A DNA stretch of 38,624 bases. It comes from Desulfomonilaceae bacterium. Lineage in GTDB: Bacteria; Desulfobacterota; Desulfomonilia; Desulfomonilales; Desulfomonilaceae. Both the position numbers and the translations under genes were made by a program. The DNA lies in NCBI GenBank assembly GCA_031082285.1, contig JAVHLK010000046.1, positions 1 to 38,624 on the forward strand. The letters run 5' to 3'. The notes beneath the pieces were generated by a model. The model searched no databases and was not told the DNA's origin. It saw only the letters and a list, made by a program, of their open reading frames with translations. Shown here one piece after another: positions 15,218 through 33,537 of this stretch (the first letter of the stretch is position 1; each line of letters starts with the position of its first letter).

Positions 15218-15398
15218 TGTCTCACCTCCAGCGGGCACCTTCAGAGCAAGGAATTGCTTCATCCGCATCCGGATCTTCACCGACGGCCCCGCTCACGCTT
15301 CGCCCCGGGTCTCATGCCGAGCAAATGTCAACAGCCCATCATGGCGAAAAGTCGGGCAGAACTAGAAAGTGCGCAACCGTCGATCGTGTCGGCAAATC

Positions 15399-17648: not shown

Positions 17649-17709
17649 GTGCACTCCTGTCGGATGGCCGCGGCGGGTTGCATGGGCGCCTCGCCAAAGG
17701 GAGATCCAT

Positions 17710-18936
17710 TCATTGGCTCCGGCTTCCACTGCTCCGAGGAGGCTGCCGGCGGAAATGCAGTGGAGGGGGTTCCTTCGTACGATTGTTTCCGCGCTTGGCT
17801 GAGATCAAGTCGACAAATCTGTCCGCCAACGTGTCCCAGTCGTGACTCTCCTTGACCAGCCGGTATCCCCATGCGGTTCGCTCCCGTACTTCATCCGGAC
17901 TGTTCAACAAATACTCGATTGCCTTCGCAAGACCATGCGGGGTTGAGGCGAAGCTGACAAACCGCCGTCCGAGTCGCTCCACTTCGAGAATGGGCGTACT
18001 GATGATCGGCTTTTTCAGGGCCGCGTATTGGAACAGCTTGAGAGGCGAGGCGGAGTGTGCCACGGGTCCTTGCTTGAAGGGGATCAGGCAGATGTCGAAA
18101 GACGATACATACTTCAGCCCGGTATGATAGTCCTGGTACCCGGGAAGGTATACGTTCTCCAGGCCCGTCTTCCGAAGTTTTGAGCGGGTCCGCGTCAATT
18201 CACGTCCTCCTCCCGCCAGGACGAAAGACGCATCGCTCATTCGAGCAGCGGTCTCGAAGACCAAATCGTAATCAACAAAATACTCGAAAGCCCCGAAGAA
18301 GCCGATAATCGGGCGAGGGAATTCCAACTCAAGCCCATCGGATCGCCCGGTGGGAAGGTCGTCGAAAGATACGCCGTTTGGAAGTAGTGATGCCCTCCCT
18401 TGAGTCATCTCCACCAGGCTGGACGATGCGGCGGTGGTGAGGTGGCAGGAATTGATAAGTTTGGATTCCATTCTCCGCGCAAGAGGCTCTACCAAAGGCC
18501 ATAATACCGGGCCTGTTTCATGCCGCAACATGGAGACAAGGTCGTCGGCCATGTCGAACACGGTCGTACACTTCACGTTACGGAGCATCGGGTATTGGGG
18601 AAGGTTGTACAGCATGAGCACCTCAATTTCATACCGGTCGATGAGGTCTTGGATCATGCGTGCAGAGGCAAGGCTAAGCAAGCCCTTCCACAACAGCTTC
18701 TTCATCGGAATCCACCGCGCCGACAGGAAGTCTGGAATCGAGACTTCACGGACAATCATGCCGGGTGGAAGCGAAATTTCAACCTCGAAAAAGCCATTTT
18801 CGTCGGAACATTCAAGAGGGGGGCTCTCCAGGACTACTACCTGGTGACCCTTCTTGCACAGGCTGGTCAACAACTGGTGAAAACGGCCCCAATTGGCTGA
18901 TCTCCACCTGGCCATATAGGGGAACAGGATATTCAC
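17710..18936 (-). CDS. GT4-family glycosyltransferase
   Basis: The 408-residue product has the GT-B layout: an N-terminal Rossmann half with the glycine-poor MARWRSANWGRFHQL segment, and a nucleotide-sugar half with IGFFGAFEYFVDYDL, DICLIPFKQGPVAHSASPLK and FQYAALKKPIIST. The SASPLKLFQY form of the donor-site motif replaces the common EAMA form. It is similar to the protein at 19,371-20,561, so the two are probably paralogues with related donors. The start is a GTG with AAGGA twelve bases upstream. The last 25 residues are basic, proline-rich and probably disordered. It adds a sugar to the polysaccharide of this locus; specificity is unknown. Confidence 0.88.
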   Translation of the reverse strand: MNILFPYMARWRSANWGRFHQLLTSLCKKGHQVVVLESPPLECSDENGFFEVEISLPPGMIVREVSIPDFLSARWIPMKKLLWKGLLSLASARMIQDLIDRYEIEVLMLYNLPQYPMLRNVKCTTVFDMADDLVSMLRHETGPVLWPLVEPLARRMESKLINSCHLTTAASSSLVEMTQGRASLLPNGVSFDDLPTGRSDGLELEFPRPIIGFFGAFEYFVDYDLVFETAARMSDASFVLAGGGRELTRTRSKLRKTGLENVYLPGYQDYHTGLKYVSSFDICLIPFKQGPVAHSASPLKLFQYAALKKPIISTPILEVERLGRRFVSFASTPHGLAKAIEYLLNSPDEVRERTAWGYRLVKESHDWDTLADRFVDLISAKRGNNRTKEPPPLHFRRQPPRSSGSRSQ

Positions 18937-19370
18937 AAAATCCGCTCATCCTTTCACTACTCTGCTTTTCCTGAGCTGGTCACAGCCTGATCGAGTGTTG
19001 TACTCGATCTCCATGCCCGGATTACGTTCAGGAACAATTCCAGTATTTCCGCGATTCGTTACCGTGCAATACCCTTCGGAGCCAATCGCGGACTCCAACG
19101 ATCGAATCGACCGGCGCAATTGAAATGACTGCAACAGAATAATTCAAGCAAATCCAACCGTGGAATTATCTACACCAGTTCGGTCTTGAAGGCAAGCGGT
19201 TCGACGGAACCCGCCACATACCTTGACGCTTTCTCCCACGGAAGCCGGGTTCTCCGTCTGACGACACAAACCGGGACGGTTCGGTCTCACGTCGTGTCAG
19301 TGGATGCCGTCTACTGCAGCGGCTTCATCGTCCTGCGGCGTGCGTCGGACTCGCATGATCCGGAGACATA
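18937..19370. other. 434-bp gap within the leftward block, possible internal promoter
   Basis: No convincing gene is seen. On the minus strand TTGCCT (19190-19195) is followed after 17 bases by TAGATA (19167-19172), which could start a transcript with a leader of about 220 bases before the GT4 gene at 18,936. A 62-codon minus-strand frame in the leader (stop at 18,946) has no protein-like character. Confidence 0.35.
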
Positions 19371-20561
19371 TCACGCGGCCGGCGAACCGAGTATCTGCCG
19401 CGCTCGCGCTTCCCACGTGTTTTCCCTGGCAACCCTGTCGATGAGCGCGAGGTAAGTTCGGTCGTCCGCCAGTTCCAACGCTCGGTCAATGGCCATCGAG
19501 AACTCTTCTTCAGTGGCCGCGGCCAGCACTCCCGGATATTGGACGCACTCTCTCATTGGAGTGACGACCACCGGTTTGCCGCCCGCCATATATTCAAAGA
19601 GTTTCAATGGTGACGTTGCGTGGGTCAGAGCGTTGAGAACAAACGGGATCATCGCGACGTGGAAGAGCGAAAGGTAATCAGGCAGCTCACGATATGAAAC
19701 CGGGCCGAGGTACGTCACGTTCGGTTCTCTCAAGAGAAGACTCTTGGAAAGCGTCCTGTCCCATTCCACTCCAATCAAGAGAAATCTGAGGTCACGTCGA
19801 CGTCTTGCAACATTCCTCAGGAGGACGTGGTCGAACCATCGAGCAATGGCCCCGTAGTAACCTATTATCGGCTTCCCGTCCAAGAAGTCCCGCCGGACCG
19901 TGCTTTTGGGCGGGGTCCTGTTCCGGGTTCCGCCCGATGCGAAATGATCGTAGTCGACTCCGTTGGGACAGTACAGACTGTCGGGACGTTCCTTTTCAAC
20001 TTCCCGGTACAGGTCTTGGGCGGTCGCAAGGACCCGGTGGGCAGACCGCACCAACGCCTTATGTCGGCGCCGAAGTACGGTCTGGTTGAACGGGAACACG
20101 CTCAGCTCGTCCAGGTAGTCGTACACGATGTGAGCCGAGTTAAGGGATTGTAGATTCCAGTTGGTCCAGGCCTGGGTTATGACCACCGGGCTCCGAAGAC
20201 GATGGAACGTGGCCGGCGGTACACGACACACGTACAGTCGATCGGCGAGTCTCTGAAATCCCACCGGCCTTTGGGAAAGTGGGGGGTCCACGTAGAATAC
20301 CAATGCTCCCAGCCTGGAAAGGGCCGTGGCCAGTTGCTGGGGTCTCTGGAATAGGACGATGTCCCACTGCACACTCGGAGTAAATATGATGATCTCGCGA
20401 TCCTGTCCTTCATTGCCGACTATGGCGTCCAAGTCTCTCCGGTACACGTCCACTCGCCCGCTTTGTCTGAAGTTCCATAGCGAATCGTAGGACCGCTTCA
20501 GTGACTGCTTGACACATGCGGGGAGATAATTCCTCAACGATTTTCGGGGAAGATTTGCCAT
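19371..20561 (-). CDS. GT4-family glycosyltransferase
   Basis: The 396-residue product is a GT-B transferase. The N-terminal half contains IFTPSVQWDIVLFQRPQQLA, a segment typical of a subgroup of polysaccharide and teichuronic-type GT4 enzymes (QRPQQLA). The donor half contains IIGYYGAIARWFDH, VAMIPFVLN and ATSPLKLFEYMAGGKPVVVTP, with the donor-binding glutamate in FEYMAGG. It is the first gene of the leftward glycan block and has a strong promoter candidate 70-100 bases upstream. The ATG at 20561 lacks a good ribosome site. It probably adds one sugar to the nascent chain on the cytoplasmic side; specificity cannot be read from sequence. Confidence 0.9.
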   Translation of the reverse strand: MANLPRKSLRNYLPACVKQSLKRSYDSLWNFRQSGRVDVYRRDLDAIVGNEGQDREIIIFTPSVQWDIVLFQRPQQLATALSRLGALVFYVDPPLSQRPVGFQRLADRLYVCRVPPATFHRLRSPVVITQAWTNWNLQSLNSAHIVYDYLDELSVFPFNQTVLRRRHKALVRSAHRVLATAQDLYREVEKERPDSLYCPNGVDYDHFASGGTRNRTPPKSTVRRDFLDGKPIIGYYGAIARWFDHVLLRNVARRRRDLRFLLIGVEWDRTLSKSLLLREPNVTYLGPVSYRELPDYLSLFHVAMIPFVLNALTHATSPLKLFEYMAGGKPVVVTPMRECVQYPGVLAAATEEEFSMAIDRALELADDRTYLALIDRVARENTWEARARQILGSPAA

Positions 20562-20629
20562 GCCTTGGGATTGGAGGTTTTTTCTCTCCTATCTTTCCGA
20601 TCTCTCTCCGGTAAAGCCTGAGCAGCTCG

Positions 20630-20658
20630 ATACTAACGGTCGTTACGAACCGAGTCAA
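20630..20658 (-). promoter_or_regulatory. Promoter of the leftward glycan block
   Basis: On the minus strand TTGACT (20653-20658) is followed after 17 bases by TAGTAT (20630-20635), about 70 bases upstream of the first GT4 gene. It is back-to-back with the rightward promoter at 20,755. Confidence 0.55.
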
Positions 20659-20754
20659 ATGATGCTTTCAGAAAATCTCTCGTCTCAAAGACACGAGTTA
20701 TGGACGGCTGGAGAAACCCTCCAAAGTGCGGTGGGACGGCTTCATCCTGGTCTA

Positions 20755-20783
20755 TTGACAGTGGTTTCAGGACGGCATAGATT
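20755..20783 (+). promoter_or_regulatory. Promoter of the rightward glycan gene pair
   Basis: A perfect TTGACA (20755-20760) is followed after 17 bases by TAGATT (20778-20783). The leader to the first gene at 20,942 is about 150 bases. The whole gap 20,562-20,941 holds these two divergent promoters and no gene. Confidence 0.55.
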
Positions 20784-20941
20784 GCACGAACCGGACACCC
20801 GGAACAACGGTCACGACAAGATACCGAAAGATTTGGGCGTTCGCCGGTTGATTTCCCCAGCATTGAGTATGTTTCTTGCGAAAAGACTATCTGTTCATCG
20901 CGGCTCTCCGTTGGAGGAGGCTGCCAAGGAGGCGGGTTCCG

Positions 20942-21367
20942 ATGAGCGACGATTCGTTGCCGGAGATCAAAAAAGAGGCTCTTTTAGCCCGAGCGCGACA
21001 CGCCCTTGATACTGATATGATTGCTGAGGACGAGACCGTTCGGGGAGAGACGCCCGACGGGACGGTGAACGAAGCGGATGACGCCATGCTGCTGGATCTG
21101 GCATGTTCCCTCAACCTGTGTGCTCAACGAATCCATGCTTTGAGCCGGCCGATCGAGCGCATACCCGAAACGTTCAAGAGGCGGTTGTTCATTCTGCGAC
21201 TCAAGCCCTTGGAGGCACTGGCGGTTCGGGTTATCGAGAGCATCTTCTGGAAGAATCGCGCATTGGCACGGGAGACCGCCGAGGCAGTGGAGATGGCGGC
21301 CGCGGCGCTGCGCTTGCAGTACCAGCGACAAAGGGCTTTGACGACCGAGCCAAGACTAAGGGAATAG
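20942..21367 (+). CDS. Small alpha-helical protein of unknown function
   Basis: The 141-residue product has no signal peptide and no membrane segment. It is almost entirely helical by composition, with an acidic N-terminal half and a basic C-terminal half (for example FKRRLFILRLKPLEALAVR and LRLQYQRQRAL). I do not recognise a named family. Small helical proteins of this kind, with a conserved central Arg/Pro helix, often accompany glycan methyltransferases and transferases and may act as assembly or chain-length partners; that is inference from context only. The ATG at 20942 has AGGAGG nine bases upstream. The frame is open from 20,876 but without a ribosome site. It precedes the double GT4 gene by 64 bases in one transcript. 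Confidence 0.75.
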   Translation: MSDDSLPEIKKEALLARARHALDTDMIAEDETVRGETPDGTVNEADDAMLLDLACSLNLCAQRIHALSRPIERIPETFKRRLFILRLKPLEALAVRVIESIFWKNRALARETAEAVEMAAAALRLQYQRQRALTTEPRLRE

Positions 21368-21431
21368 GGCTTGGACAAGTTCCGTCCGTTGTCGCACCGA
21401 CACCGGATCGGACGGCAAGGGGAAAGACGGC

Positions 21432-23762
21432 TTGGAAGGCACGGGGAAAAGAGTCCTGCACGTGTCCGACATTCGTTGTCCGCTCTCAGGCAACGGTCCC
21501 CATTACCTCGTCGAGGGAACGTTTGACGGATCCGGCAGTTTCGACATCGTCAACCGGAGCTTTGCACGCGCTCTTGAGGAAGCACTGCCGGGGCGAGTGG
21601 CCGTCTTCCCGTCGGAGGGTCGGGGACGGCTCGTGGGGGAAAAAGGCTTCGACCGAAGTGAGGGGCTTCACGAGCTGATCTCCCGCTTTGATTCGAAGGA
21701 CGTACCCCATGTGAACATTCGAAGCTTCTTCCCACTGAGAGTGCTCGGCATGAGCGGTCGAATCAACCTATTGTTTTTCCCGTGGGAAGAGACCCTCGTT
21801 CCCCACCAATGGGTCGAGCAATTCAACCTGTTCCTGGACGGCATATTGGTACCCAGCGCCTTTGTGAAAAAGGCGCTTGTGGACTCGGGAGTCTCCATAC
21901 CCATTGAGATAGTCGGCCATGGGCTCGACCACTTCGCTGAAGTCCTGAAGAGCCTAAGGAGGACTAATCCCAGGGAACGGACCGGATTTCTTCACATCTC
22001 TTCATGTCTGCCGCGCAAGGGGGTGGACGTCCTCCTCAAGGCCTATTCCAGGGCATTCGGCGCGCAGGACCCGGTAACGCTCACCATCAAGACATTCCCC
22101 GGCGAACTCAATAGGGTTCAAGACCAAATCCGGGCTCTGAAAGAGCTCAACCAGCAATACCCGGATATCGTTCTTATCAATCGGGATCTGGAGGAGGAGG
22201 ACCTCGCACGACTGTATCTCGCCAACGACGCGTTGGTTCTCCCCAGTCGAGGCGAGGGGTTCGGTTTGCCTCTTGGAGAAGCCATGCTCGCCGGCATCCC
22301 CGTCATCACGACCGGCTACGGAGGACAGACGGATTTCTGCACCCCCGAGAATACGTGGCTCGTGGATTTCACGCTTCAGAAGGCACGAAGCCATTTCAAT
22401 CAGAAGGATTCGGTCTGGGCGGAACCGGATGCGAAGCATCTGGAGTTGCAAATGAGGGCCGTCTATGAAGGCTTGAGAGAGAACTCGCCTGCTGTTCGTG
22501 CCCGAACGGAGTCGGCCCAAGCCTTTGCTCAAAGTCGGTTGCGATGGTCCGGCACGGTTGAGCGGACCGTCAGGTTCGTACGAAGACTGAAGCAACCCGA
22601 GATCCCCAAGCATCCCCTGGGGATCGCTTGGATAACCCCTTGCAGCGAAGACCGCGACATAGCCGACTATTCCCGTTCCCTGCTTCGCTTTTTCGACAAG
22701 AAGAGGTTCCGTCTACGAGTCTATTCAGCCGGAGGACAGACCGGATCGGACCGGTGGGATGATCTCGTCGCAACGGAACATGGAAAACTCGCCGAGGACC
22801 CGGAAGTCATGGCGAGGCATGTGCTGGACGACGATGCGGATTGTGTGGTGATTCAGTATCATCCCTCACTTTTCCCTTCCGGGGGATTGTCGTGTTTCAT
22901 AGAAAAGCTCAGTGCAAAGAACGTGCGTATTGTCCTTTCGCTCCACAGAACCCGGGATATGAACGAGACTTGCCGGGCAAAATCATTAGACTTCATCACC
23001 AATGAGCCGGCCCTATGCGACCGCATTCTGGTCAAGTCCATACCTGCGTTGAACCGTATGAAGGCTCTCGGGCTCATACACAACGTGACGCTTTTCCCCC
23101 ACGGCATCATGAGCCGTCAGCCGAGGCCCAAAACCGAGGTAAGAGACCTTCTGGGTATTTCCGCGTACGGGCCGGTGATATCGTCTCTCGGACCTCTGGA
23201 GGAGCAAGGGGGTGCCGGCGAATTGATCCGGGCACTTCCTGCGATTCTTGAGGCACATCCCAAAACTTTCCTGCTTCTTGTCAACAGGGTGGATGCCGGC
23301 GATTCGTCCGTGAGCTATCGCGATGATTGTGTGAAGCTCTTACGGAGCCTGGGCGTGAGCCGACACGCGGTACTGGTGGATGATCAGCTCACCGAAAGGG
23401 AGTCTCTTCTTCTCCTGGAAGCCGCGGATGTCGCGGTGTTTCCGGCCCAAGTTTCCGACGATTCCCAGATTGCTTCCGTCAGCCTCGCGTTGGCGGCCGG
23501 CCGGCCGATTCTCACAACCGACGTATGCGCTTCCGGCGAGTTCGAAGGAGCGATAGACCTGCTGCCGGGGCGAGAGAGCAAGGACATCGCTCACGGTCTT
23601 CTGAAGGCCCTAGAGGACCCCGAATTCACCCGTAAGCTTCCCGACGGGCGATCCGCGTTAATCAAGGCCCGCTCCTGGGGTACGTTGTCTGTTCGATTGC
23701 AGCGTATGATATTGGCTCTCGTTCGAGATCGCCAAGAGGTGGGCAGCCACATTTTTACCTGA
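21432..23762 (+). CDS. Double GT4 glycosyltransferase (tandem GT-B domains)
   Basis: The 776-residue protein holds two GT-B units. Unit 1 (about 1-390) is complete: ISSCLPRKGVDVLLKAY opens the donor half and SRGEGFGLPLGEAMLAGIPVITT carries the E-x7-E motif. Unit 2 (about 395-776) has a Rossmann half, an MSRQPRPKTEVRDL hinge and a donor half, but its motif is weak (SQIASVSLALAAGRPILTT) and lacks the first glutamate. Unit 2 may therefore be slower, differently specific or structural. The start is a TTG without a strong ribosome site; the protein-like sequence begins right there (KRVLHVSDIRCP). It shares its transcript with the small helical protein and ends convergently with the GT2-GT4 gene. 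Confidence 0.9.
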   Translation: MEGTGKRVLHVSDIRCPLSGNGPHYLVEGTFDGSGSFDIVNRSFARALEEALPGRVAVFPSEGRGRLVGEKGFDRSEGLHELISRFDSKDVPHVNIRSFFPLRVLGMSGRINLLFFPWEETLVPHQWVEQFNLFLDGILVPSAFVKKALVDSGVSIPIEIVGHGLDHFAEVLKSLRRTNPRERTGFLHISSCLPRKGVDVLLKAYSRAFGAQDPVTLTIKTFPGELNRVQDQIRALKELNQQYPDIVLINRDLEEEDLARLYLANDALVLPSRGEGFGLPLGEAMLAGIPVITTGYGGQTDFCTPENTWLVDFTLQKARSHFNQKDSVWAEPDAKHLELQMRAVYEGLRENSPAVRARTESAQAFAQSRLRWSGTVERTVRFVRRLKQPEIPKHPLGIAWITPCSEDRDIADYSRSLLRFFDKKRFRLRVYSAGGQTGSDRWDDLVATEHGKLAEDPEVMARHVLDDDADCVVIQYHPSLFPSGGLSCFIEKLSAKNVRIVLSLHRTRDMNETCRAKSLDFITNEPALCDRILVKSIPALNRMKALGLIHNVTLFPHGIMSRQPRPKTEVRDLLGISAYGPVISSLGPLEEQGGAGELIRALPAILEAHPKTFLLLVNRVDAGDSSVSYRDDCVKLLRSLGVSRHAVLVDDQLTERESLLLLEAADVAVFPAQVSDDSQIASVSLALAAGRPILTTDVCASGEFEGAIDLLPGRESKDIAHGLLKALEDPEFTRKLPDGRSALIKARSWGTLSVRLQRMILALVRDRQEVGSHIFT

Positions 23763-23924: not shown

Positions 23925-26306
23925 TCAATACGGCAGGGAAGAATTTCTCCTTTTTCGATTCAAGAAATCTGCATTACTCTCCACAATCCGTTCAAGACGG
24001 GAACGAACCAAACTGCCGGTATTCGCAGGCGAAAAATCGGACTTGATCCGGGTTGCGGCTCGGAATCCAATTCGAGCGCAGAGGTCCGGGTCGCCGGCGA
24101 CCCGTTTCATGATTTCCGCTGCGTGTTCCGTATCGGGTTCCGCCCAGTGACTTCCTTTTTCAAAGGGGCCGACGTCCTCGTCGAGTTCAATCAACTCGAA
24201 TCGGACGGGAAAGGAGTTCTCTGTGTTCATGAAGTCCATGTTCCCGGAATATCCTGTTGCAATGACCGGTTTACCCAGGTACATGGCCTCGGCAATGGGC
24301 AAGCCGAACCCTTCGGATCTATGCAATGAAACCAGACAATCGCAGGCGTTTATGAGTGCGTCAATCCGTGAACGATCGAAAGCGCCGTCAATGTGGACGA
24401 TCGAATCCGAGGTGCTTAAGAAGCGTTGGATCGGCGGCATATCGTGTTTCCAGGAATGAGCTCCAATGGTCTTGAGACAGAGGTACACGCCATAGTTCTT
24501 CGACCCAAAGGCTTTGAAAAAAGCTTTGAGCGCTCCCACTGGGTTTTTTCGCTCAGACATGCTCGCAAAATCGGTCATTACCAGGAAGATGAATCCGCTT
24601 TCCGGAAGTCCCAGTTCCCGTCGGTCAATCCAGGCCGGCGGTTTGGGCGCTACATTGTGCGGCATGCGGACCACGGGGACATTCAACTCTCGGCTGAAGA
24701 TGTCCGCGCAGAAGGTCGAAGGAGTCCACACCTCGTCGAACGATTCGATGTACGGCCGCCACGGTCTGGGAAAGCGTTCTGTTTCCCAAACCCAATAGCC
24801 GATGTTGTACCGACGGCTGAAAAATGTGGACCCGAACGTCTTGCGTGCAGCGGGCACAAAATCCGCCCCGAAATGGAGAATGTTGAAAATGACGTCCCGA
24901 AAATCGGTCCCGGAACGGTCCGTGGGGTCCGCACGACAAGATGTTAGTCTGTCGGGGGATCCAAGACCATAGACGACAGTCCCGATCCCCGCTGCTTCGC
25001 ATGCGCGGACAATGGAGCGACAGCTTTCTCCAAGTCCGGTCGTCAAGTCGTACGGCCCTATGACGTTGGCGAATTTCAGATCCGGCGGTTTTTGCGACAA
25101 TGGAGATCGCCTACTACCTTTGGAGCGCTGCCGCAAAGCCTTCAGCAAAGATATCCCATGGGCCAGGCCCAGACCATCTCTGATCTCCCTTCGCCACCGC
25201 AAAGGCAACAGATTCCTCATGCCACGATAGGACGCTCGCGCAAGTTCGCTCGGATGGTTCCCATAGTACGCGACGGACTGTCGAAATCGCCACATCCACT
25301 CGGCGCGCCTGAACCGGCCATACTCGATGCAGTGTTCCGCAGCGTCGGCATCCGCGTGGCGCACCATGAACGGAGGATGCTTTAAGGGAAACTCCATCTC
25401 CTCGCAGGGAAGCCGGCCAAAGGGATGGTAGCGCAGACTGGTCCTGTCCTGCGAGAAACCGGCGTTCGTAATCAGGTTGCGACTCGGCACGATTGAAAGG
25501 CCGTTGCGAACCATACAGGCGAATGCCCATTGGTAATCCCAGGTATCCGCGCCTCCCGCAACGGCGTCAAATTGCTTGCGGTACGTTCTCGCCTGAGCAT
25601 TGTTTTCCATCAGGTGGAAGAGCCACCGGCCGTCTCTCAAGACCGGCCACAGCTCCATGTCAATGTCATAGTGCTTCCAAGCTCTCCGCCAGGTTGCCCA
25701 TCCCCAACAATGGCAGAATCTTGAAAAATAGTACGAATATGGTGTGCGGTTTCGCCCCATCTGGAAGTTGTCGCCGCTGATCATCATTACCCGCTCGTCA
25801 TCCCGGTAGCGGGCAAGCAATTCCTTGCAGAAACGGAAGAAAGTTGGATGAGGGATGCAATCATCCTCGAGGATGACGGCTTCTTCCACATTCTCGAATA
25901 CCCATTGCAATCCGCTTGACACCCTCGCCTTGCAACCCATGTTTACGGGGGAATAGTTCGTTAGGACTTCGCAATCCCAGTCAATGAGTTCAATCAGTGC
26001 ACGAGCTTCCGCACATTTGTCGGCGTCCTCCGGTACATGGGCTCGAGGACCGTCGGCCACGACCAGAACCTTCGAAGGCCTTGCCTGGGCCATCGAAGCG
26101 AGCACCTTCCCCGTGGGTTCCGGTCTGTTGAAGATCAGGAGGGCGACAGGCGGCGAAGAATCCCCCTCCGTCGACGAACCGGTTGCCATATCCGCAGCGT
26201 GGTCGCTATCCGCGGTTTTCTCTGCCCCAACAGCAGAGACCTGGTACCTAGGTTCCTTCTGTTCAAGATTTTCCGAAGACGGTCGATTCAGGTAGGGGAA
26301 CCTCAT
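23925..26306 (-). CDS. Bifunctional GT2-like and GT4 glycosyltransferase
   Basis: The product (793 residues from the ATG at 26306) first has a GT-A domain: PPVALLIFNRPEPTGKVL, VVADGPR and the metal-binding VILEDDCIPHP, followed by WGWATWRRAW, a segment characteristic of this EDD-type nucleotide-sugar transferase group. From about residue 400 a GT4 unit follows: GPYDLTTGLGESCRS, YNIGYWVWETERFP, and the donor half with LHRSEGFGLPIAEAMYLGKPVIAT. Both catalytic signatures are complete, so both halves should be active. The start is uncertain: a GTG at 26393 overlaps the stop of a gene remnant and would add 29 residues, and neither has a strong ribosome site. Last gene of the second leftward block. 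Confidence 0.88.
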   Translation of the reverse strand: MRFPYLNRPSSENLEQKEPRYQVSAVGAEKTADSDHAADMATGSSTEGDSSPPVALLIFNRPEPTGKVLASMAQARPSKVLVVADGPRAHVPEDADKCAEARALIELIDWDCEVLTNYSPVNMGCKARVSSGLQWVFENVEEAVILEDDCIPHPTFFRFCKELLARYRDDERVMMISGDNFQMGRNRTPYSYYFSRFCHCWGWATWRRAWKHYDIDMELWPVLRDGRWLFHLMENNAQARTYRKQFDAVAGGADTWDYQWAFACMVRNGLSIVPSRNLITNAGFSQDRTSLRYHPFGRLPCEEMEFPLKHPPFMVRHADADAAEHCIEYGRFRRAEWMWRFRQSVAYYGNHPSELARASYRGMRNLLPLRWRREIRDGLGLAHGISLLKALRQRSKGSRRSPLSQKPPDLKFANVIGPYDLTTGLGESCRSIVRACEAAGIGTVVYGLGSPDRLTSCRADPTDRSGTDFRDVIFNILHFGADFVPAARKTFGSTFFSRRYNIGYWVWETERFPRPWRPYIESFDEVWTPSTFCADIFSRELNVPVVRMPHNVAPKPPAWIDRRELGLPESGFIFLVMTDFASMSERKNPVGALKAFFKAFGSKNYGVYLCLKTIGAHSWKHDMPPIQRFLSTSDSIVHIDGAFDRSRIDALINACDCLVSLHRSEGFGLPIAEAMYLGKPVIATGYSGNMDFMNTENSFPVRFELIELDEDVGPFEKGSHWAEPDTEHAAEIMKRVAGDPDLCARIGFRAATRIKSDFSPANTGSLVRSRLERIVESNADFLNRKRRNSSLPY

Positions 26307-26389
26307 GGACTCTGTTCTCGTCCTATCACTATCAGATGATTGCAGCCGTCCGTCAGAAGATAGGGCAGGAAAGCCGCAAGCCCGGGGGA

Positions 26390-26643
26390 TCACTTCGTGC
26401 CCAATTTTCTTGGAGTCTGCCCGGGAACCTTCGCGTCGAGCGGGCTCGAGACAACTGCACCGCCCTTGCCAAGGGCAACAATGAGGTCAGTGCAGGCCTG
26501 CACACCGTCCCAATCTCCTCGTGGGTTCACGTCCAAAGGCTGCCAAAACACACGTTCGGAACAGGATCTCTTGCCGATCGAGATCTTACGAAACTCTCAA
26601 TCTCCTCGCACTTATTGAATCGTTCACCGAATCCATAGCGGCG
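26390..26643 (-). pseudogene. Remnant of an unidentified gene, split over two frames
   Basis: Within the 397-bp gap upstream of the GT2-GT4 gene the minus strand has two adjoining open pieces. The first (from just after a TAG at 26,644) contains YGFGERFNKCEEIE and ARDPVPNVCFGS; the second, one frame off, contains QPLDVNPRGDWDGVQAC, TDLIVALGKGGAVV and a natural end (GTK) with TGA at 26,390. Composition and codon use look like real protein, and a single frameshift near FGS/QPL joins them. I do not recognise the family. There is no start codon with a ribosome site, so this is most likely the decayed 3' end of a gene. Confidence 0.45.
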
Positions 26644-26703: not shown

Positions 26704-28263
26704 TCACCTCACTTGCCCTTTCAGCCGAAAGAGTCGTTCCATTCCGTGCCGGTCGGCCCAACGCCTATCCTCCGGCTCCAACCCGGAGTATACCTCCTCC
26801 AGGACGTCCTTGATCTCTTCGTCGTCGTGAAGGCGGGAACCCCTCAGCAGGATGCGATTGGTTGCGTCCATCCTCGTCGGGTATGCGATGAAATCGGGAT
26901 ACAACTGCTTAAGGATGACCCCGTATTCTCCGCCGGCGTACGCGTTCCCCACGGACAATCCAAGAGGAATCGCTGAACTACCGAAAGCGCAGACCTGTGT
27001 CCAGCCTTCGTACCTCTCGAGGTTTCGAACAATCGTGAGTTGCGTATCACGGCATCGGTCGAGCATTTTGACGAGCGCAACCCATTGGGTCCCTTGGAAC
27101 GCCGCTATAAGGAAGAGCATTGTCAGGAATAGCCCTGCTCCGGATGTGGCTCCGACCTGTTCTCTTCTTTCCAAGAGGAGTCCCAGTATGAGTGCGCCGC
27201 TGAGTCCCAGCAAACCAAGCGCAGGCACCAGGTAATGATACAGGGGATGCTTGGCCGTAACGAGAATCTGCACTGCCATCGCAAGTGTCACTGCGAACAG
27301 CCCTCTCCTCAGCGCCTTGTGGAGGTCGGAGGTTTCGTCGGTTGTAATTCGGCACCAGACGAGCAACCCGGCCGCATAACATACGACCGTAAACAGGAGC
27401 CGCTCGTACCTGGCGAGATCGCCTATCGCGGCAACATAGGCGGAAACATCAATAAACGCCGCGGCTCCCTGTCCGTACAAGCCCGTGTGGGTGGACAGCT
27501 GGAGAATGAACGTGAAGAAACGGGTGAGTCTGCCGCCAATGATGACGGGAAGAAACGCAATAAGGGCTGCAAGGAATGCCGCGGCGAGATACGTCAACCT
27601 GCTCCGGCGATCGTCGAGTATGAGCAGGGGTATGATTGCAAGAACCGCTGCCGTGATCTTGGTCACGATTGCCAACCCGGTGACGATCCCGAGCATGACG
27701 GCGATCCTGACGCCCTTGGATGAATCACGCTTCCACAGGTGCGCAAGAACAAGTGCCCCCATGAGACAGGACAAGCTGAGAAGCAATGACTCGGGTTTCG
27801 GCCTGGTAAGGGAATCCAGGGACGAAACGCTCAAATGAGGTCCAATTTGAATCAGGAGTGCGAGAAAGATGTTCCCCGTTGCCTTGAATGCGATGACTCC
27901 CGCGGCAAAGACCAGCACGGCATGAATCATGAGCAAGGTATAAGAAATTGCATTGGCGTAAGGCTCGGGATTCTTGAGGACGTCCCGAACCAGCTCGCTC
28001 TGTCCCGAGAATACGTGCTTTACGCGAATCGCGGCCGCCCCGATCAATTGAACGGTGGTGCCGGGATGATCCACGTGACTTGAAACTTTGAATCGCGCGG
28101 CGTGCAAGGAATCGACGAGGTAATGGTAGTGGGGGTCGTTGTTGTGGCCCAGCCAATGGGGCCCTCGTGCAGCCATGAGCCTCAGCCCAAGGGGCACGGT
28201 GGCTGCGGCCGTCGCGATCAGGAGGATCCACGCGATGATGCGGGTTCTCTTTCCGTTGGACAC
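26704..28263 (-). CDS. Polytopic glycosyltransferase, GT39/ArnT-like
   Basis: The 519-residue protein has an N-terminal membrane helix, a first periplasmic loop with paired acidic/His residues (GHNNDPHYHYLVDSL and VDHPGTTVQLIG), then about ten further membrane helices and a soluble C-terminal domain from about 430. This is the layout of polyprenyl-phosphate-sugar-dependent transferases (GT39, GT83 and relatives), where the Asp of the first loop is catalytic. Such enzymes modify a glycan or lipid on the periplasmic side. The GTG at 28263 with GGGAGG eight bases upstream is preferred to a TTG at 28314. It lies between the Anp1-like gene and the GT2-GT4 gene on one transcript. Substrate unknown. 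Confidence 0.82.
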   Translation of the reverse strand: MSNGKRTRIIAWILLIATAAATVPLGLRLMAARGPHWLGHNNDPHYHYLVDSLHAARFKVSSHVDHPGTTVQLIGAAAIRVKHVFSGQSELVRDVLKNPEPYANAISYTLLMIHAVLVFAAGVIAFKATGNIFLALLIQIGPHLSVSSLDSLTRPKPESLLLSLSCLMGALVLAHLWKRDSSKGVRIAVMLGIVTGLAIVTKITAAVLAIIPLLILDDRRSRLTYLAAAFLAALIAFLPVIIGGRLTRFFTFILQLSTHTGLYGQGAAAFIDVSAYVAAIGDLARYERLLFTVVCYAAGLLVWCRITTDETSDLHKALRRGLFAVTLAMAVQILVTAKHPLYHYLVPALGLLGLSGALILGLLLERREQVGATSGAGLFLTMLFLIAAFQGTQWVALVKMLDRCRDTQLTIVRNLERYEGWTQVCAFGSSAIPLGLSVGNAYAGGEYGVILKQLYPDFIAYPTRMDATNRILLRGSRLHDDEEIKDVLEEVYSGLEPEDRRWADRHGMERLFRLKGQVR

Positions 28264-28371
28264 CCCTGGTGCCTCCCTGTCTCTCGCGTCACGGAGAAAT
28301 GCTTCTCCACTCAAGCGAATCGCATCTTCACCAGCCCGTCCAAGGCCGTCTTTCTAAAGCCCACATCGACG

Positions 28372-29193
28372 TTAGATCTTGTGCAGGACTTCCAGATTGG
28401 GCATTCCCCAGCATTCATGACCCATTTCATAGGCCATGATGCCGAAGCCTTCGGTCTCGATTTCGCCTTGAAACCGTCTTCTCAGGATATCCATCAAACT
28501 GTATCTCTTTACTATATCGGCCTTTGTGGACAGGTGGTTCCGGGAACGTATAAGAGGACTCCTCGTACCAAACAGAAAGGGAGGGAAGATCAAGCCGTCT
28601 CTGTGCAGGTCGGCTCTCACGAACAGCATGGAGCCCCCGACCGCGTGCAACCGTACGAGGTCCCCTTCCTGCCGCAGTTCCTCCATGTGACGCGTACCCC
28701 TCTCACTCCACGCGTTGAGGTCGAACGTCTTACGGTCACTCTCCCTTACGCAATGGGGGTGAACGATGTCCTTACCGGTTTTGAGGAGTCGCTCAATGAT
28801 GTCGGGTGGATAGCCGACCAAATCGACGTCGATCCAGAGAACCCAATCCTCGTCCGTGAGAGCCCTAAACAGAAGATGATTTCGACTCCGGGCAAGCACG
28901 GCTCTGCGTTCAATTTGAATCTCCGTCGCCCACCTCGACGCCCCCGGAGGTATGACGAAGCCGAAATCCTTTTTCCAGAGTCTTGTAGAGCGGAACTCCG
29001 ACCCCAGGCTTTCAAGAAGCCTCTTCGACTCGGTAAAGGTATTGTCCCTGCTGTCACTTTCCAGGAAGCCGATCGAGATCAGAGAACGCGGATAGGTCAG
29101 ATCCAGGAGAAGTTGGAAATACACGGCCAAGTGGTTCTCCGCATCCTTGAGCGGTGTCAGTATCAGTACTTTGTCGGTAGGAAGTGAGCACAT
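28372..29193 (-). CDS. Anp1/Mnn9-like (GT62-type) glycosyltransferase
   Basis: The 273-residue protein resembles the catalytic domain of the fungal Golgi alpha-mannosyltransferase subunits Anp1, Van1 and Mnn9 along its whole length. Shared landmarks in order are VLILTPLKDAENHL (9-22), LTYPRSLISIGFLESDS (32-48), RRAVLARSRNHLLF (96-109), WVLWIDVDLVGYPP with the metal-binding D122-x-D124, FDLNAW (157-162), VGGSMLFVRADLHRDGLIFP (185-204) and IETEGFGIMA (245-254). Yeast Mnn9 has closely matching text at each point. A stretch of about 35 residues (208-242) is inserted between the FP and IETEGF motifs. No signal anchor precedes the domain, unlike the fungal type II proteins, so it should act in the cytoplasm. 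The ATG at 29193 follows AGGGGGA; the frame extends to 29232 without a ribosome site. Sugar specificity, mannose in fungi, is unknown here. Confidence 0.82.
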   Translation of the reverse strand: MCSLPTDKVLILTPLKDAENHLAVYFQLLLDLTYPRSLISIGFLESDSRDNTFTESKRLLESLGSEFRSTRLWKKDFGFVIPPGASRWATEIQIERRAVLARSRNHLLFRALTDEDWVLWIDVDLVGYPPDIIERLLKTGKDIVHPHCVRESDRKTFDLNAWSERGTRHMEELRQEGDLVRLHAVGGSMLFVRADLHRDGLIFPPFLFGTRSPLIRSRNHLSTKADIVKRYSLMDILRRRFQGEIETEGFGIMAYEMGHECWGMPNLEVLHKI

Positions 29194-29502
29194 CGGTCCC
29201 CCTTGGGAGCGAGCTTCGAGCATGGCCTGCATTCACACGCAGGGGCCGGCCGCCGGAGCGCTCCGGTGCCGGATGGAGTGAGGCCCAATCTACAGGGCGG
29301 ATGGAAAAATTACAAGAACAGTCCGGACTCGCAAGGCTCTTGAAAATCTGCCGCCAATCCGGATTCGCGAATCATCGCTCAGCCGGGCGACCACAACGCC
29401 GCCGGCTCCAACCAGCGACGGCCAAGATGCTGGACGACCAGTGCCGGTGATGGTAGGATTCCGGATGTCCGAGCTTCGGGCCCCGCTCGGCACGTGGTCT
29501 GG
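29194..29502. other. Divergent regulatory gap between the Anp1-like gene and Wzm
   Basis: The 309 bases hold no convincing gene. They contain a GC-rich palindrome, CCGGAGC-GCTCCGG (29253-29266), next to GGCCGGCC (29244-29251), and the leftward promoter listed separately. A clear rightward promoter for Wzm was not found. Confidence 0.4.
29287..29315 (-). promoter_or_regulatory. Promoter of the second leftward glycan block
   Basis: On the minus strand TTGTAA (29310-29315) is followed after 17 bases by TAGATT (29287-29292), about 90 bases upstream of the Anp1-like gene. The same -10 hexamer occurs at the rightward promoter at 20,778. Confidence 0.45.
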
Positions 29503-30444
29503 ATGGCAACGGAGAAGGCGGCAAGGGGAAAAACTTTGTCTTGGATCAATGGATCACGGGAACACGGAGGATCGGTCTTGTCCTCGGAGTGCGCGGGAGA
29601 TCGGGAAAACCAGTGGACAAAGATCATTACACCGGAGCGGGCGTGGTTCGACATCGACCTTGGAGCACTCTGGCGTTATCGATACTTGGTCCGGCTCTTC
29701 GTACTGCGCGATCTCGTTGCCACGTACAAGCAAACGATTCTGGGACCGGCTTGGTTTTTCATCTCACCTCTCATAACGGCCGTCGTCTTCACTTTTGTTT
29801 TCGGCACGATAGCCGCCATTCCCACTGACGGCATGCCCCCGTTTCTCTTCTATTTGTGCGGAACGGTATGCTGGGGACAATTTTCGCGGTGCCTCGTCAC
29901 CACCTCGAGCGTGTTCGTGGACAACTCCCACATCTTCGGCAAAGTCAGTTTCCCGCGCTTGGCCATACCCGTGGCTACGGTAATCTCGAGCGGAGCCAAG
30001 TTTCTCGTACAGCTCGTCATCCTGCTGGGATTCATGATCTATTTCAGGAGCAAGGGATCTCCGGTTGCACCGAACTGGTGGGCGCCGGCCGTCCTTTTCC
30101 TCGGGTTGCAGGCGGGGATTATCGGTATGGCCGCCGGTATTCTCATCGCGTCGGTCACGACCAAATACCGTGACCTTATGTTTTTCGTGCAGTTCGGCGT
30201 TCAGCTTTGGATGTACGCCACACCCGTCGTGTATCCGCTGTCCCAGGTCCCGGAGCGGTACGGATGGTTCTTCCTCTTGAACCCTATGGTTGCCGTGGTC
30301 GAAAGCTTCCGATTGGCATTGCTCGGGACCGGCGGTGTCGGTCCTCTGCAGATGGGGATGAGCGTCGCTTTCACTATTCTCCTGCTTTTGGCAGGACTCG
30401 GATCGTTCAACAAAACCGAGAACACGTTTATGGATCGAATCTGA
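29503..30444 (+). CDS. wzm: Polysaccharide ABC transporter permease (Wzm)
   Basis: The 313-residue protein is an ABC-2 type permease with six membrane helices. After a polar N-terminus of about 40 residues comes the cytoplasmic lead-in WFDIDLGALWRYRYLV and LRDLVATYKQTILGPAWFF, the conserved helix of Wzm proteins, followed by PLITAVVFTFVFG, WGQFSRCLVTT and the late LWMYATPVVYPLS and LNPMVAVVESFR. With the Wzt ATPase encoded 74 bases downstream it forms the channel that moves lipid-linked polysaccharide across the inner membrane. The start is uncertain: ATG at 29503 or the GTG three codons upstream, neither with a strong ribosome site. No own promoter was found. Confidence 0.93.
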   Translation: MATEKAARGKTLSWINGSREHGGSVLSSECAGDRENQWTKIITPERAWFDIDLGALWRYRYLVRLFVLRDLVATYKQTILGPAWFFISPLITAVVFTFVFGTIAAIPTDGMPPFLFYLCGTVCWGQFSRCLVTTSSVFVDNSHIFGKVSFPRLAIPVATVISSGAKFLVQLVILLGFMIYFRSKGSPVAPNWWAPAVLFLGLQAGIIGMAAGILIASVTTKYRDLMFFVQFGVQLWMYATPVVYPLSQVPERYGWFFLLNPMVAVVESFRLALLGTGGVGPLQMGMSVAFTILLLLAGLGSFNKTENTFMDRI

Positions 30445-30518: not shown

Positions 30519-31784
30519 ATGACAACTGTACTTCGCGTGGAACACGTCAGCAAAATGTATCGGCTCGGCGAGATCGGGTACGGTGCCCTTCGGGAGGATC
30601 TGACGGGCTGGTGGGCGCGCGTGAGAGGAAAAGAAGACCCAAACGCGTCCATTCACGAATCATGCAGGGGAGCGAACGGTTGCGATTCAACAACGATAAT
30701 GGCCCTCAACGACGTGTCTCTTGAGCTGGGACAGGGCGAGGTGACCGGAATCATCGGGGGAAACGGAGCAGGGAAGTCAACGCTCCTGAAGCTTATCAGC
30801 GGACTCACCGCGCCGACGCGAGGGAGGATCTTTCTCCGAGGACGCGTTGGGAGCCTTCTGGAGGTAGGAATCGGCTTCCATCCCGAACTTACCGGCAGGG
30901 AGAATGTGTTCCTCAACGGCGCGATCCTGGGGATGACCAAGGCCGAGGTGCGAAGGAAGTTTGACGAGATCGTTGCGTTTTCCGGCGTGGAAAGATTCAT
31001 CGATACACCCGTGAAGCGGTACTCGAGCGGCATGTACGTCAGGCTGGGCTTCTCGGTGGCTGCACATCTTGAGCCTGAAATAATGCTTATAGACGAAGTC
31101 CTGGCCGTGGGAGATGCGGAATTCCAGAAAAAATGTCGCGAGAAAATTCGTCGACTATCCAGAATGGGGCACAGCGTAATTTTTGTGAGCCACAACATGG
31201 AATCGATTCGAGAAATCTGCCGGCGGGGAGTCGTGCTCAATAGAGGGAAGATCGTGTGGTCCGGAAGAGCCGAGGAAGCAACCAGGGTTCATTTGGAACT
31301 CCATTCGGCCGGCCCCGGAGCATGGAATGCCGAATCCTTTTTCGGTCCGCTCACCTCGGCCGTCACCTATTCCACCATTGAGATCAATGGGACCAGGGCC
31401 CAGGGCGACAGCATCATATCCCCTGAATCGAGTATCCGAATATCCTGTTACGGAACGTGTTCCACCGGTCTGGAGTCGTACCGGACATCGGTCGGGATCT
31501 TCAGAGATGGAGTGAGAATATTCACCCTGCATGACCTGAAACGTCCCGAACCGTTACCCGAAGGGAATTTCATGTCCGAAGTGACAATTCCGCCCTTGTT
31601 GCTTCGTCCGGGGCGATACTCGATCGGACTTGGCGGACGCGACCATTCCGACGGGCAATGGCTGTGGGGGAGCGATCTGATCGGTTTTGAGATCGATAAG
31701 AGGTGGACTGACCAATACGGGAGAGACTCAACCGGCCTGGTCAATCTTCAGCAGGAAGGCAGGCGGGTCTTGCTGTCCGGTTAG
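30519..31784 (+). CDS. wzt: Polysaccharide ABC transporter ATPase (Wzt) with C-terminal glycan-binding domain
   Basis: The 421-residue protein has a complete ATPase: Walker A GGNGAGKST (80-88), signature YSSGM (168-172), Walker B IMLIDE (188-193) and the switch histidine in VSHN (His225). An insertion at about 36-58, before the Walker A strand, is common in Wzt. Residues from about 285 form the beta-rich Wzt_C domain, which in O-antigen systems of the O9a type recognises the modified non-reducing end of the chain before export. Its presence predicts a terminal modification, for which the two methyltransferases of the locus are candidates. Its stop overlaps that of the convergent small gene at 31,781. 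Confidence 0.95.
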   Translation: MTTVLRVEHVSKMYRLGEIGYGALREDLTGWWARVRGKEDPNASIHESCRGANGCDSTTIMALNDVSLELGQGEVTGIIGGNGAGKSTLLKLISGLTAPTRGRIFLRGRVGSLLEVGIGFHPELTGRENVFLNGAILGMTKAEVRRKFDEIVAFSGVERFIDTPVKRYSSGMYVRLGFSVAAHLEPEIMLIDEVLAVGDAEFQKKCREKIRRLSRMGHSVIFVSHNMESIREICRRGVVLNRGKIVWSGRAEEATRVHLELHSAGPGAWNAESFFGPLTSAVTYSTIEINGTRAQGDSIISPESSIRISCYGTCSTGLESYRTSVGIFRDGVRIFTLHDLKRPEPLPEGNFMSEVTIPPLLLRPGRYSIGLGGRDHSDGQWLWGSDLIGFEIDKRWTDQYGRDSTGLVNLQQEGRRVLLSG

Positions 31785-32131: not shown

Positions 32132-33067
32132 TCAGAAGAGCAGCAAATCGGTTTGTGAGGCGGTCGGCGGTCTTTCGGCCTTCAACAGAGCGCTGTATAA
32201 TGAATCCAGCTCGCTTGGACCTACGGTCACGAGTTCCTTGGATTGTTCCGATGCCCCGACGTCTACGATATGTTCATAGGCTGAAATCGCTCTGTGTAAT
32301 GAATCGTACCCTCCAACCCGCTCCAAGGCGTACGGCCAGAATTCCACCACCATAGGGACTCTTCGGTTCAGCAAACTCTCGGCTCCCGCGAGCACGTTAC
32401 CTTCGTAACCTTGGGTATCGAGCCAGCTAAGATCCACGTCGTCCACTGCAATTTCACCGTGTTCCACTAAGCTGTCGATGCTTCTCCCATCTACTTGGAC
32501 GCAAGACCTGCTTTCCTCGTCATACAAATTGGGCCTACCCCTGAATACGTGGTTCCTGATTCGGTGATCGCCGAGATTATCCTCCGATCTCTCCAACGTC
32601 AACGGTCCGTCAGTGTTGGAAGCGGCTATCTCGAAATTCGTGCACCGTGAGTCAACGTTATTGATGATCTGGTTCACTCTGAGCAACCTGAAGTTCAGTG
32701 GATCCGGCTCGATGAAAATTGCTCTCTGAAATGAGCTCTTGAGGGCGAAAATACCATGACCCCCGATGTTTGCTCCGACGTCAAGAAAGCACCGGGTCTG
32801 AAAATCGCTCACAAACTGCTTTATTATTGTAATTACGTTCGTTATTTGGCTGGTCCCGAAGTCACCGCAGTTCATAAATCCGGAGCCTATAACCATATCC
32901 TTCTTGCATACTACCATGTGCCCGAAAGTCGTCCTGCAGGCAACATAGGCAGATGCCTCCAGATACTTGACGCGTTGCATTTCATGCGCGGAATAAGCGC
33001 TCAAGGCCCCTTCAGCGATCAAGGAGCCGGTGGATGCGACTAGGCGTTTAATATACTTCTTAATCAT
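32132..33067 (-). CDS. FkbM-family methyltransferase
   Basis: The product (311 residues from the ATG at 33067) has the FkbM architecture: CFLDVGANIGGHGIFAL (SAM motif I), FIEPDPLNFRLLRVN (motif II), the NTDGPLTLE and VDGRSIDSLVE segments, and DLSWLDTQGYEGNVLAGAESLL, which matches the family signature where most members read D-x-K/Q-G-x-E. It ends in TDLLLF, as many members do. FkbM enzymes O-methylate sugars or polyketides. Here a role in methylating the polysaccharide, perhaps its end, is likely but inferred. The start is uncertain: a TTG at 33160 in frame would add 31 residues, and neither start has a good ribosome site. Confidence 0.88.
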   Translation of the reverse strand: MIKKYIKRLVASTGSLIAEGALSAYSAHEMQRVKYLEASAYVACRTTFGHMVVCKKDMVIGSGFMNCGDFGTSQITNVITIIKQFVSDFQTRCFLDVGANIGGHGIFALKSSFQRAIFIEPDPLNFRLLRVNQIINNVDSRCTNFEIAASNTDGPLTLERSEDNLGDHRIRNHVFRGRPNLYDEESRSCVQVDGRSIDSLVEHGEIAVDDVDLSWLDTQGYEGNVLAGAESLLNRRVPMVVEFWPYALERVGGYDSLHRAISAYEHIVDVGASEQSKELVTVGPSELDSLYSALLKAERPPTASQTDLLLF

Positions 33068-33537
33068 CGGTTGTTGAAAAGCCTTGTCCGCCTGAATTGC
33101 TCGACGCGCTTGTTCGAAAGACTTCAGGCCGTCGAAGGACCCTTCGATGGGTTCCGTCAAGCCTGCTTACCATGGACTCCTCCGGAGAGTCAAGGCGGTA
33201 ACCGGAAATCGTGTAATGTCCCTGAACGGGTTTGCACCTTTTCTCGACCCTTCCAAGGATCGAACAGGCCGTTGCGAACGTCAGGAAAATGAAGGCCCGA
33301 GTCATAATGCGCGGTGAAGCGTACAAGGTCTTGCCCCCGGTCGCGACCAAATTCGGAAACGAGACGGGTACGCGGGGCCTGCATATGACCGAACGCCTGC
33401 AGCGAAGTCGACAATTTCATTGACCAATCAGTTCATTCGAACTATAGCTATATCCATTGCCGCTTCCGCTGCGACAAGACATCATTCCACACTCCACGTG
33501 CACCGTTCGAGGAGCGCATAAAGGATTTTGAGCGAGC
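33068..33537. other. Gap between FkbM and the O-antigen ligase
   Basis: About 470 bases without a convincing gene. A minus-strand frame at 33,190-33,420 is mildly protein-like (RFTAHYDSGLHFPDV) and could be a remnant, but it has no ribosome site. The right part holds the ligase promoter. Confidence 0.35.
33420..33448 (+). promoter_or_regulatory. Promoter of the O-antigen ligase gene
   Basis: TTGACC (33420-33425) is followed after 17 bases by TATAGC (33443-33448), about 90 bases before the ligase start. Confidence 0.5.

Follow-up and report, generated by a model that had tools for sequence, protein, structure and literature searches.

Mnn9 of Saccharomyces cerevisiae, which works with Van1/Anp1 in the complexes M-Pol I/II, belongs to glycosyltransferase family GT62 (Pfam Anp1, PF03452) and has a solved structure (3zf8); with enzymes of this family fungi make the mannan of their coat. 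AnpA of Aspergillus fumigatus, alone, transfers alpha-1,6-mannose in vitro when given guanosine diphosphate mannose (GDP-mannose) and Mn2+, according to a 2022 study (PMC9769593). A Mnn9 homologue from the rhizobium Mesorhizobium opportunistum served as an outgroup in the same study, whose accessible part gives it no function, genomic context or structure; the existence of bacterial members was therefore already known. A 2017 survey that included 52 bacteria had recorded PF03452 in fungi only (PMC5225481). In the open-access literature, i.e. subscription journals and CAZy listings aside, we found no account of bacterial GT62 function, pairing with GT71 or fusion to GT32, and the genomic context of bacterial GT62 described below (GT71 pairing, GT32 fusion) seems unreported.

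Here we analyze a GT62 gene in a stretch of 38,624 nucleotides (the window) from contig JAVHLK010000046.1 of a Desulfomonilaceae bacterium (assembly GCA_031082285.1). An earlier note, made from the sequence alone, had proposed a bacterial homologue of the fungal Anp1/Mnn9 mannosyltransferases inside an O-antigen locus. Membership of the window protein in the GT62/Anp1 family is near certain, and the protein probably transfers mannose from GDP-mannose in the assembly of a surface polysaccharide.

Family, fold and active site

The window protein matches Pfam Anp1 well beyond chance, with an E-value of 2.2e-50 and a score of 172 bits (cut-off 28.8). Yeast Mnn9 was its sole strong sequence match among solved structures (1.1e-22), and a profile of 28 bacterial sequences raised this match to 1.6e-37. 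Searches of PHROGs and NCBIfam with the GT62 protein gave no match. An AlphaFold model built from the bacterial alignment reached a mean predicted local distance difference test score (pLDDT) of 92 and a predicted template modelling score (pTM) of 0.90, and Foldseek ranked Mnn9 first (3.6e-19). Superposed on 3zf8 with VIA-align, the model gave a Z-score of 29.3 and a root-mean-square deviation of 1.7 Å over 223 residues (32% identity). The Mnn9 core was the best match of the predicted fold among all PDB entries; the next-best fold was COLGALT1 (Z 23.1), about 6 Z units behind. The Anp1/Mnn9 assignment of the earlier note thus holds by both profile and fold, and every motif it had listed is present (ILTPL, ARSRNHLLF, WVLWIDVDL, FDLNAW, VGG...HRDGLIFP and IETEGFGIMA).

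The reading frame runs on the minus strand and ends in a stop codon at 28372. Two ATG codons are candidate starts, at 29193 and 29232. A ribosome-site-like run (AAGGGGGA) stands just 5' of the first and none precedes the second, so we favor 29193, as the note had done, and a product of 273 residues; residue numbers here follow the 286-residue product of the upstream ATG. The predicted absence of a membrane anchor was borne out: the protein, a single domain, has no transmembrane segment, with a maximum 19-residue hydropathy of 1.07. The codon-position G+C profile of the gene is similar to that of its neighbors. Contamination of the bin was ruled out by TypA on the same contig: it shares 87% identity with its counterparts in two genomes from the family, and the genome has no second full-length copy, which makes the contig native to the bin.

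To describe residue conservation we aligned the window protein with 31 other bacterial sequences (n = 32). Mnn9 activity is abolished by R209A, D236N and D280N and by loss of H389 (PMC3787745). The equivalents in the window protein (R109, D135, D171 and H284) are invariant in all 32 sequences, as are the equivalents of Mnn9 R210, R217, D238, E364 and E366, while that of T365 is kept in 31. Q124 of Mnn9, which buries the guanine, is replaced by lysine in the bacterial proteins (arginine in two); the GDP-mannose enzyme RmMGS, the mannosylglycerate synthase of Rhodothermus, likewise has lysine there (PMC3787745). The alignment thus marks the catalytic and donor side as conserved relative to Mnn9, and the acceptor side as not conserved.

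GT62 and its partners in other bacteria

Full Anp1 domains are rare in the bacterial genomes sampled. Among 198 genomes of the phylum, that of the window alone has one, with partial or sub-threshold matches in a few others, and 41 further genomes from its class gave no full domain. Matches over the cut-off occurred in 2 of 337 genomes of the class of Labrys and 2 of 251 genomes of the phylum of another relative, L004 (the query genome is included in the counts for the 198, 337 and 251 genomes). Across the collection, relatives were found in Pseudomonadota, Chloroflexota, Thermomicrobiota, Bacteroidota, Melainabacteria and Actinomycetota, many of them in metagenome-assembled genomes (MAGs). A tblastn search of phages gave no GT62 match and viral contigs held no relative; on plasmids, relatives were limited to the fused forms of Azospirillum and Gemmobacter described below. 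This rare but scattered distribution suggests that GT62 has passed horizontally between bacteria and gives no indication of a recent transfer from fungi.

A second family of fungal mannosyltransferases recurs beside these genes. PF11051 (Mannosyl_trans3, GT71, the Mnn1/Mnn2/Mnn5 family) is present in 17 of the 31 genomes searched, and a GT71 gene directly adjoins GT62 in 15 of 30 related loci (4.5 kb away in one more); its orientation and the flank of GT62 that it occupies both vary. Individually tested PF11051 matches ranged from 4e-25 to 4e-36. As a base rate, any match to PF11051 occurred in just 1 of the 337 genomes of the Labrys class (24.7 bits, in a genome without GT62). The paired loci are not independent, as several come from Devosia and Reyranella, and the pair is also found in one Bacteroidota and one Thermomicrobiota MAG. 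The GT71 proteins of two loci (L024 and L006) contain GT4-like domains as well, and PF11051 and GT4 domains were the commonest families among 90 neighbor proteins scanned. No PF11051 match was found in the window genome itself, and the pairing is thus informative about the GT62 family but not directly about the window gene.

The tree separates two kinds of bacterial GT62. The stand-alone proteins, including that of the window, have in common an insert between the FPPF and IETEG motifs. A second lineage (support 99/98) comprises sequences from Streptomyces, Azospirillum, Gemmobacter and one alphaproteobacterium; it lacks the insert (5-residue spacing, as in Mnn9) and has a Mnn9-like 284-325 region of 31-38 residues. 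In those members of this lineage that were run against Pfam, GT62 forms the C-terminal part of a larger protein with a GT32 domain (PF04488). The order is GT32-GT2-GT62 in Streptomyces and A. lipoferum and GT32-GT62 in Gemmobacter, while the 1965-residue A. picis protein has six recognizable parts (GT32-GT2-TPR-GT-D-like-GT4-GT62). Och1 and Hoc1 belong to GT32 (PMC5225481); PF04488 is broad, and the fusion by itself says little on function. A grouping of yeast Mnn9 with the fused lineage was not rejected by the approximately unbiased test (p-AU 0.435), but a single fungal sequence on a very long branch can neither root the tree nor settle the direction of descent. For the window protein the tree gives no well-supported nearest neighbor.

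By local identity its closest relative is in locus L008 (60%), where wzm, wzt, GT4 and membrane-protein genes surround a GT62 copy broken by an in-frame TGA (L008:5404-6260). The membrane protein there, a positional counterpart of the one next to GT62 in the window, has a weak PMT_2 match. Near GT62 in two other loci we also observed a PqqD-like protein and an uncharacterized nucleotidyltransferase (PF14907; L026:9886-10908 and L027:8751-9887), and PF14907 occurs in three neighbor proteins overall.

The polysaccharide locus and the proposed function

The polysaccharide-locus setting proposed for the window was recovered, with Wzm/Wzt ATP-binding cassette (ABC) export genes and many glycosyltransferases around GT62 (Table 1). 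On the GT62 strand follow a gene for a multi-pass membrane protein and one for a GT2-like/GT4 protein, both presumably co-transcribed with GT62; wzm and wzt are divergent from it. The identities given to these neighbors in the earlier note stood in part. The membrane protein, called GT39-like, has no Pfam or PDB match and its identity was not established. In the product of the third gene, Pfam clearly recognizes GT4 in one half and gives no significant hit for the GT2-like half. In A. picis (L031) a GT4 domain with 35% identity to that of the third gene immediately precedes GT62 in the fused protein, and two other genomes (L025 and L030) have weaker relatives just upstream of their GT62; such fusion and adjacency support a common pathway for GT62 and the third gene of the window.

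Two side observations concern other products of the locus. A homologue search with the membrane protein gave two relatives only, and two tandem genes for proteins of about 30% identity to it, without a Pfam family, are found in another genome of the phylum (L059:1216-2919 and L060:955-2667). The Wzt-like ATPase ends in an extension of about 150 residues, possibly a divergent type of glycan-binding domain.

Table 1. Features of the GT62 locus in the window and of GT62-linked domains in related loci.
Feature	Position	Strand	Basis
GT62 (Anp1/Mnn9-family) glycosyltransferase gene, 273 aa (286 aa from ATG 29232)	28372..29193	-	PF03452 2.2e-50; 3zf8 top PDB entry by sequence and structure
DxD metal site, D135-V-D137 (Mnn9 D236/D238)	28822..28830	-	Invariant 32/32; Mnn9 D236N inactive (PMC3787745)
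D171 (Mnn9 D280)	28720..28722	-	Invariant 32/32; D280N inactive
H284 (Mn2+-coordinating Mnn9 H389)	28381..28383	-	Invariant 32/32; H389 indispensable
FPPF-EIETEG insert, 38 residues	28465..28575	-	Alignment lengths; low-confidence stretch of model
Multi-pass membrane protein, directly downstream of GT62 (57-base gap)	26704..28314	-	Hydropathy segments; no Pfam family; model pLDDT 43.8
GT2-like/GT4 two-domain protein	23925..26393	-	Pfam GT4 match; GT-like N-terminal half without significant family; BLAST E 3.6e-51 to L031
Wzm-like ABC-2 polysaccharide export permease, divergent from GT62	29494..30444	+	PF01061 1.1e-14; best NCBIfam galactan export Wzm, below cut-off
Wzt-like ATPase with C-terminal extension	30519..31784	+	ABC_tran 1.6e-21; Wzt_C weak, 0.041
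FkbM-family methyltransferase	32132..33160	-	PF05050 8e-13; TIGR01444 over cut-off
Further glycosyltransferases: 13148-15280 (-), 15399-17729 (-), 17710-18936 (-), 19371-20561 (-), 21432-23762 (+)	13148..23762	mixed	Pfam GT1/GT4 and GT2 domains
GT71 (PF11051) abutting GT62	L006, L010, L011, L012, L013, L016, L017, L018, L020, L021, L022, L023, L024, L028, L033
GT32 (PF04488)-GT62 natural fusions	L031:2865-8762, L029:6375-8840, L055:8387-10756, L056:7230-8786		GT2 between in 3/4

We consider it probable that the window protein is a bacterial GT62 enzyme transferring mannose from GDP-mannose in surface-polysaccharide assembly. It would be a soluble, cytoplasmic GT-A enzyme that uses Mn2+ and GDP-mannose and, by a retaining mechanism, adds alpha-linked mannose to a polyprenyl-linked polysaccharide. 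The remainder of the chain would come from the neighboring GT4-type enzymes, and the polysaccharide would leave the cell through the divergently encoded Wzm/Wzt transporter. For the bond formed, alpha-1,6 is the best single guess, and a tentative one. A GDP-mannose pyrophosphorylase-like gene lies on another contig of the genome (a GMP_PMI-type match with the guanylyltransferase part at 332 bits and the isomerase part nearby; the cut-off of this model is set for the fused form), which suggests that the organism makes GDP-mannose. The MAG is 99.9% complete and has a single GT62 gene, thus no second GT62 partner as in fungal M-Pol, and we infer that the enzyme acts without one.

Several observations weigh against this proposal. 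The hairpin matching Mnn9 262-283, which the authors of the structure paper termed unique, is shortened (14 versus 22 residues), and the 284-325 region is mostly absent (42 residues reduced to 14), including E305, named there as a possible linkage determinant (PMC3787745). In addition, the insert between FPPF and IETEG adds a new segment on the acceptor side (38 residues versus 5 in Mnn9), in agreement with the 'about 35 extra residues' of the earlier note. Since these acceptor-side loops differ, linkage and acceptor are not safely transferable from Mnn9. The window spacing is the longest in the set, against 15-23 residues in other stand-alone bacterial members, and its middle part is of low confidence in the AlphaFold model; by alignment, the extra residues are an extended form of the insert common to all stand-alone members. 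Finally, no sugar-nucleotide gene and no Mnn2-type gene are found within the window, and the open-access literature yielded no assay of a bacterial GT62.

The unlike acceptor-side loops and the loss of E305, along with the heterogeneity of the surrounding loci, would also fit a protein that is GT62 by descent but has changed its donor or bond (e.g. to GDP-rhamnose or GDP-fucose) and makes a non-mannan O-antigen. We think this unlikely, given that R209, D236, D280 and H389 on the donor side do not vary among the 32 sequences and that 15 of 30 relatives adjoin a family whose fungal members are mannosyltransferases. A non-catalytic, structural role has a precedent in yeast, where Mnn9 can activate Van1 while inactive itself and Van1 polymerase activity needs the Mnn9 protein but not its activity (PMC3787745). 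Yet every catalytic residue is strictly kept in the window protein and the genome holds no other GT62 for it to support, so such a role seems very improbable. Scarcely credible is an ordinary GT2 or GT25-type enzyme with a superficial likeness to Anp1: it could draw on COLGALT1 as the second-best fold and on a weak match to Pfam GT2 (PF00535), but the latter is under its cut-off (21 versus 23.3 bits), as against 172 bits for Anp1 and first place for Mnn9 in fold.

Fungal mannan synthesis and other known systems

GT71 and GT32 are the other families of fungal mannan assembly, and bacterial GT62, spread over many phyla with its active site intact, is recurrently paired with the one or fused to the other. 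If the bacterial proteins make alpha-mannans, they would be a bacterial counterpart, perhaps a source, of fungal mannan synthesis, and the adjacency of GT62 and GT71 in bacteria makes its origin testable. A bacterial origin of the fungal GT62 family is possible. A fuller scenario, which we offer as speculative and rate as rather improbable, is that the families of fungal outer-chain mannan (GT62, GT71 and perhaps GT32) first came together as bacterial surface-polysaccharide modules (a mobile stand-alone GT62-GT71 pair, and a GT32-GT2-GT62 fusion with indels matching Mnn9) and were then taken up by ancestors of the Ascomycetes. The window protein, a soluble member of the stand-alone lineage, would then still be making a polymer similar to alpha-mannan. 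Soluble single-chain enzymes of this kind would also be convenient tools for GT62 chemistry without Golgi complexes.

RmMGS, with its lysine at the guanine-burying position, and Kre2/Mnt1 (GT15) are related retaining GT-A enzymes that use GDP-mannose but belong to different families by sequence. AnpA is of the same family as the window protein; it is fungal and makes the galactomannan core (PMC9769593). S. cerevisiae Mnn9 shares with the window protein the family profile, fold, DxD motif, arginine pair, D280, H389 and IETEG motif. It differs in being an anchored Golgi subunit with Van1, whereas the window protein is soluble and predicted to be cytoplasmic, with a shortened hairpin, most of 284-325 missing and the 38-residue insert. 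The mannan O-antigens of Escherichia coli O8/O9a are ABC-dependent, derived from GDP-mannose and exported by Wzm/Wzt, like the polymer proposed here, but are made by GT4-type enzymes and not by GT62. The window gene is therefore a known family in a form unlike the fungal one in its soluble state, its indels and its type of locus.
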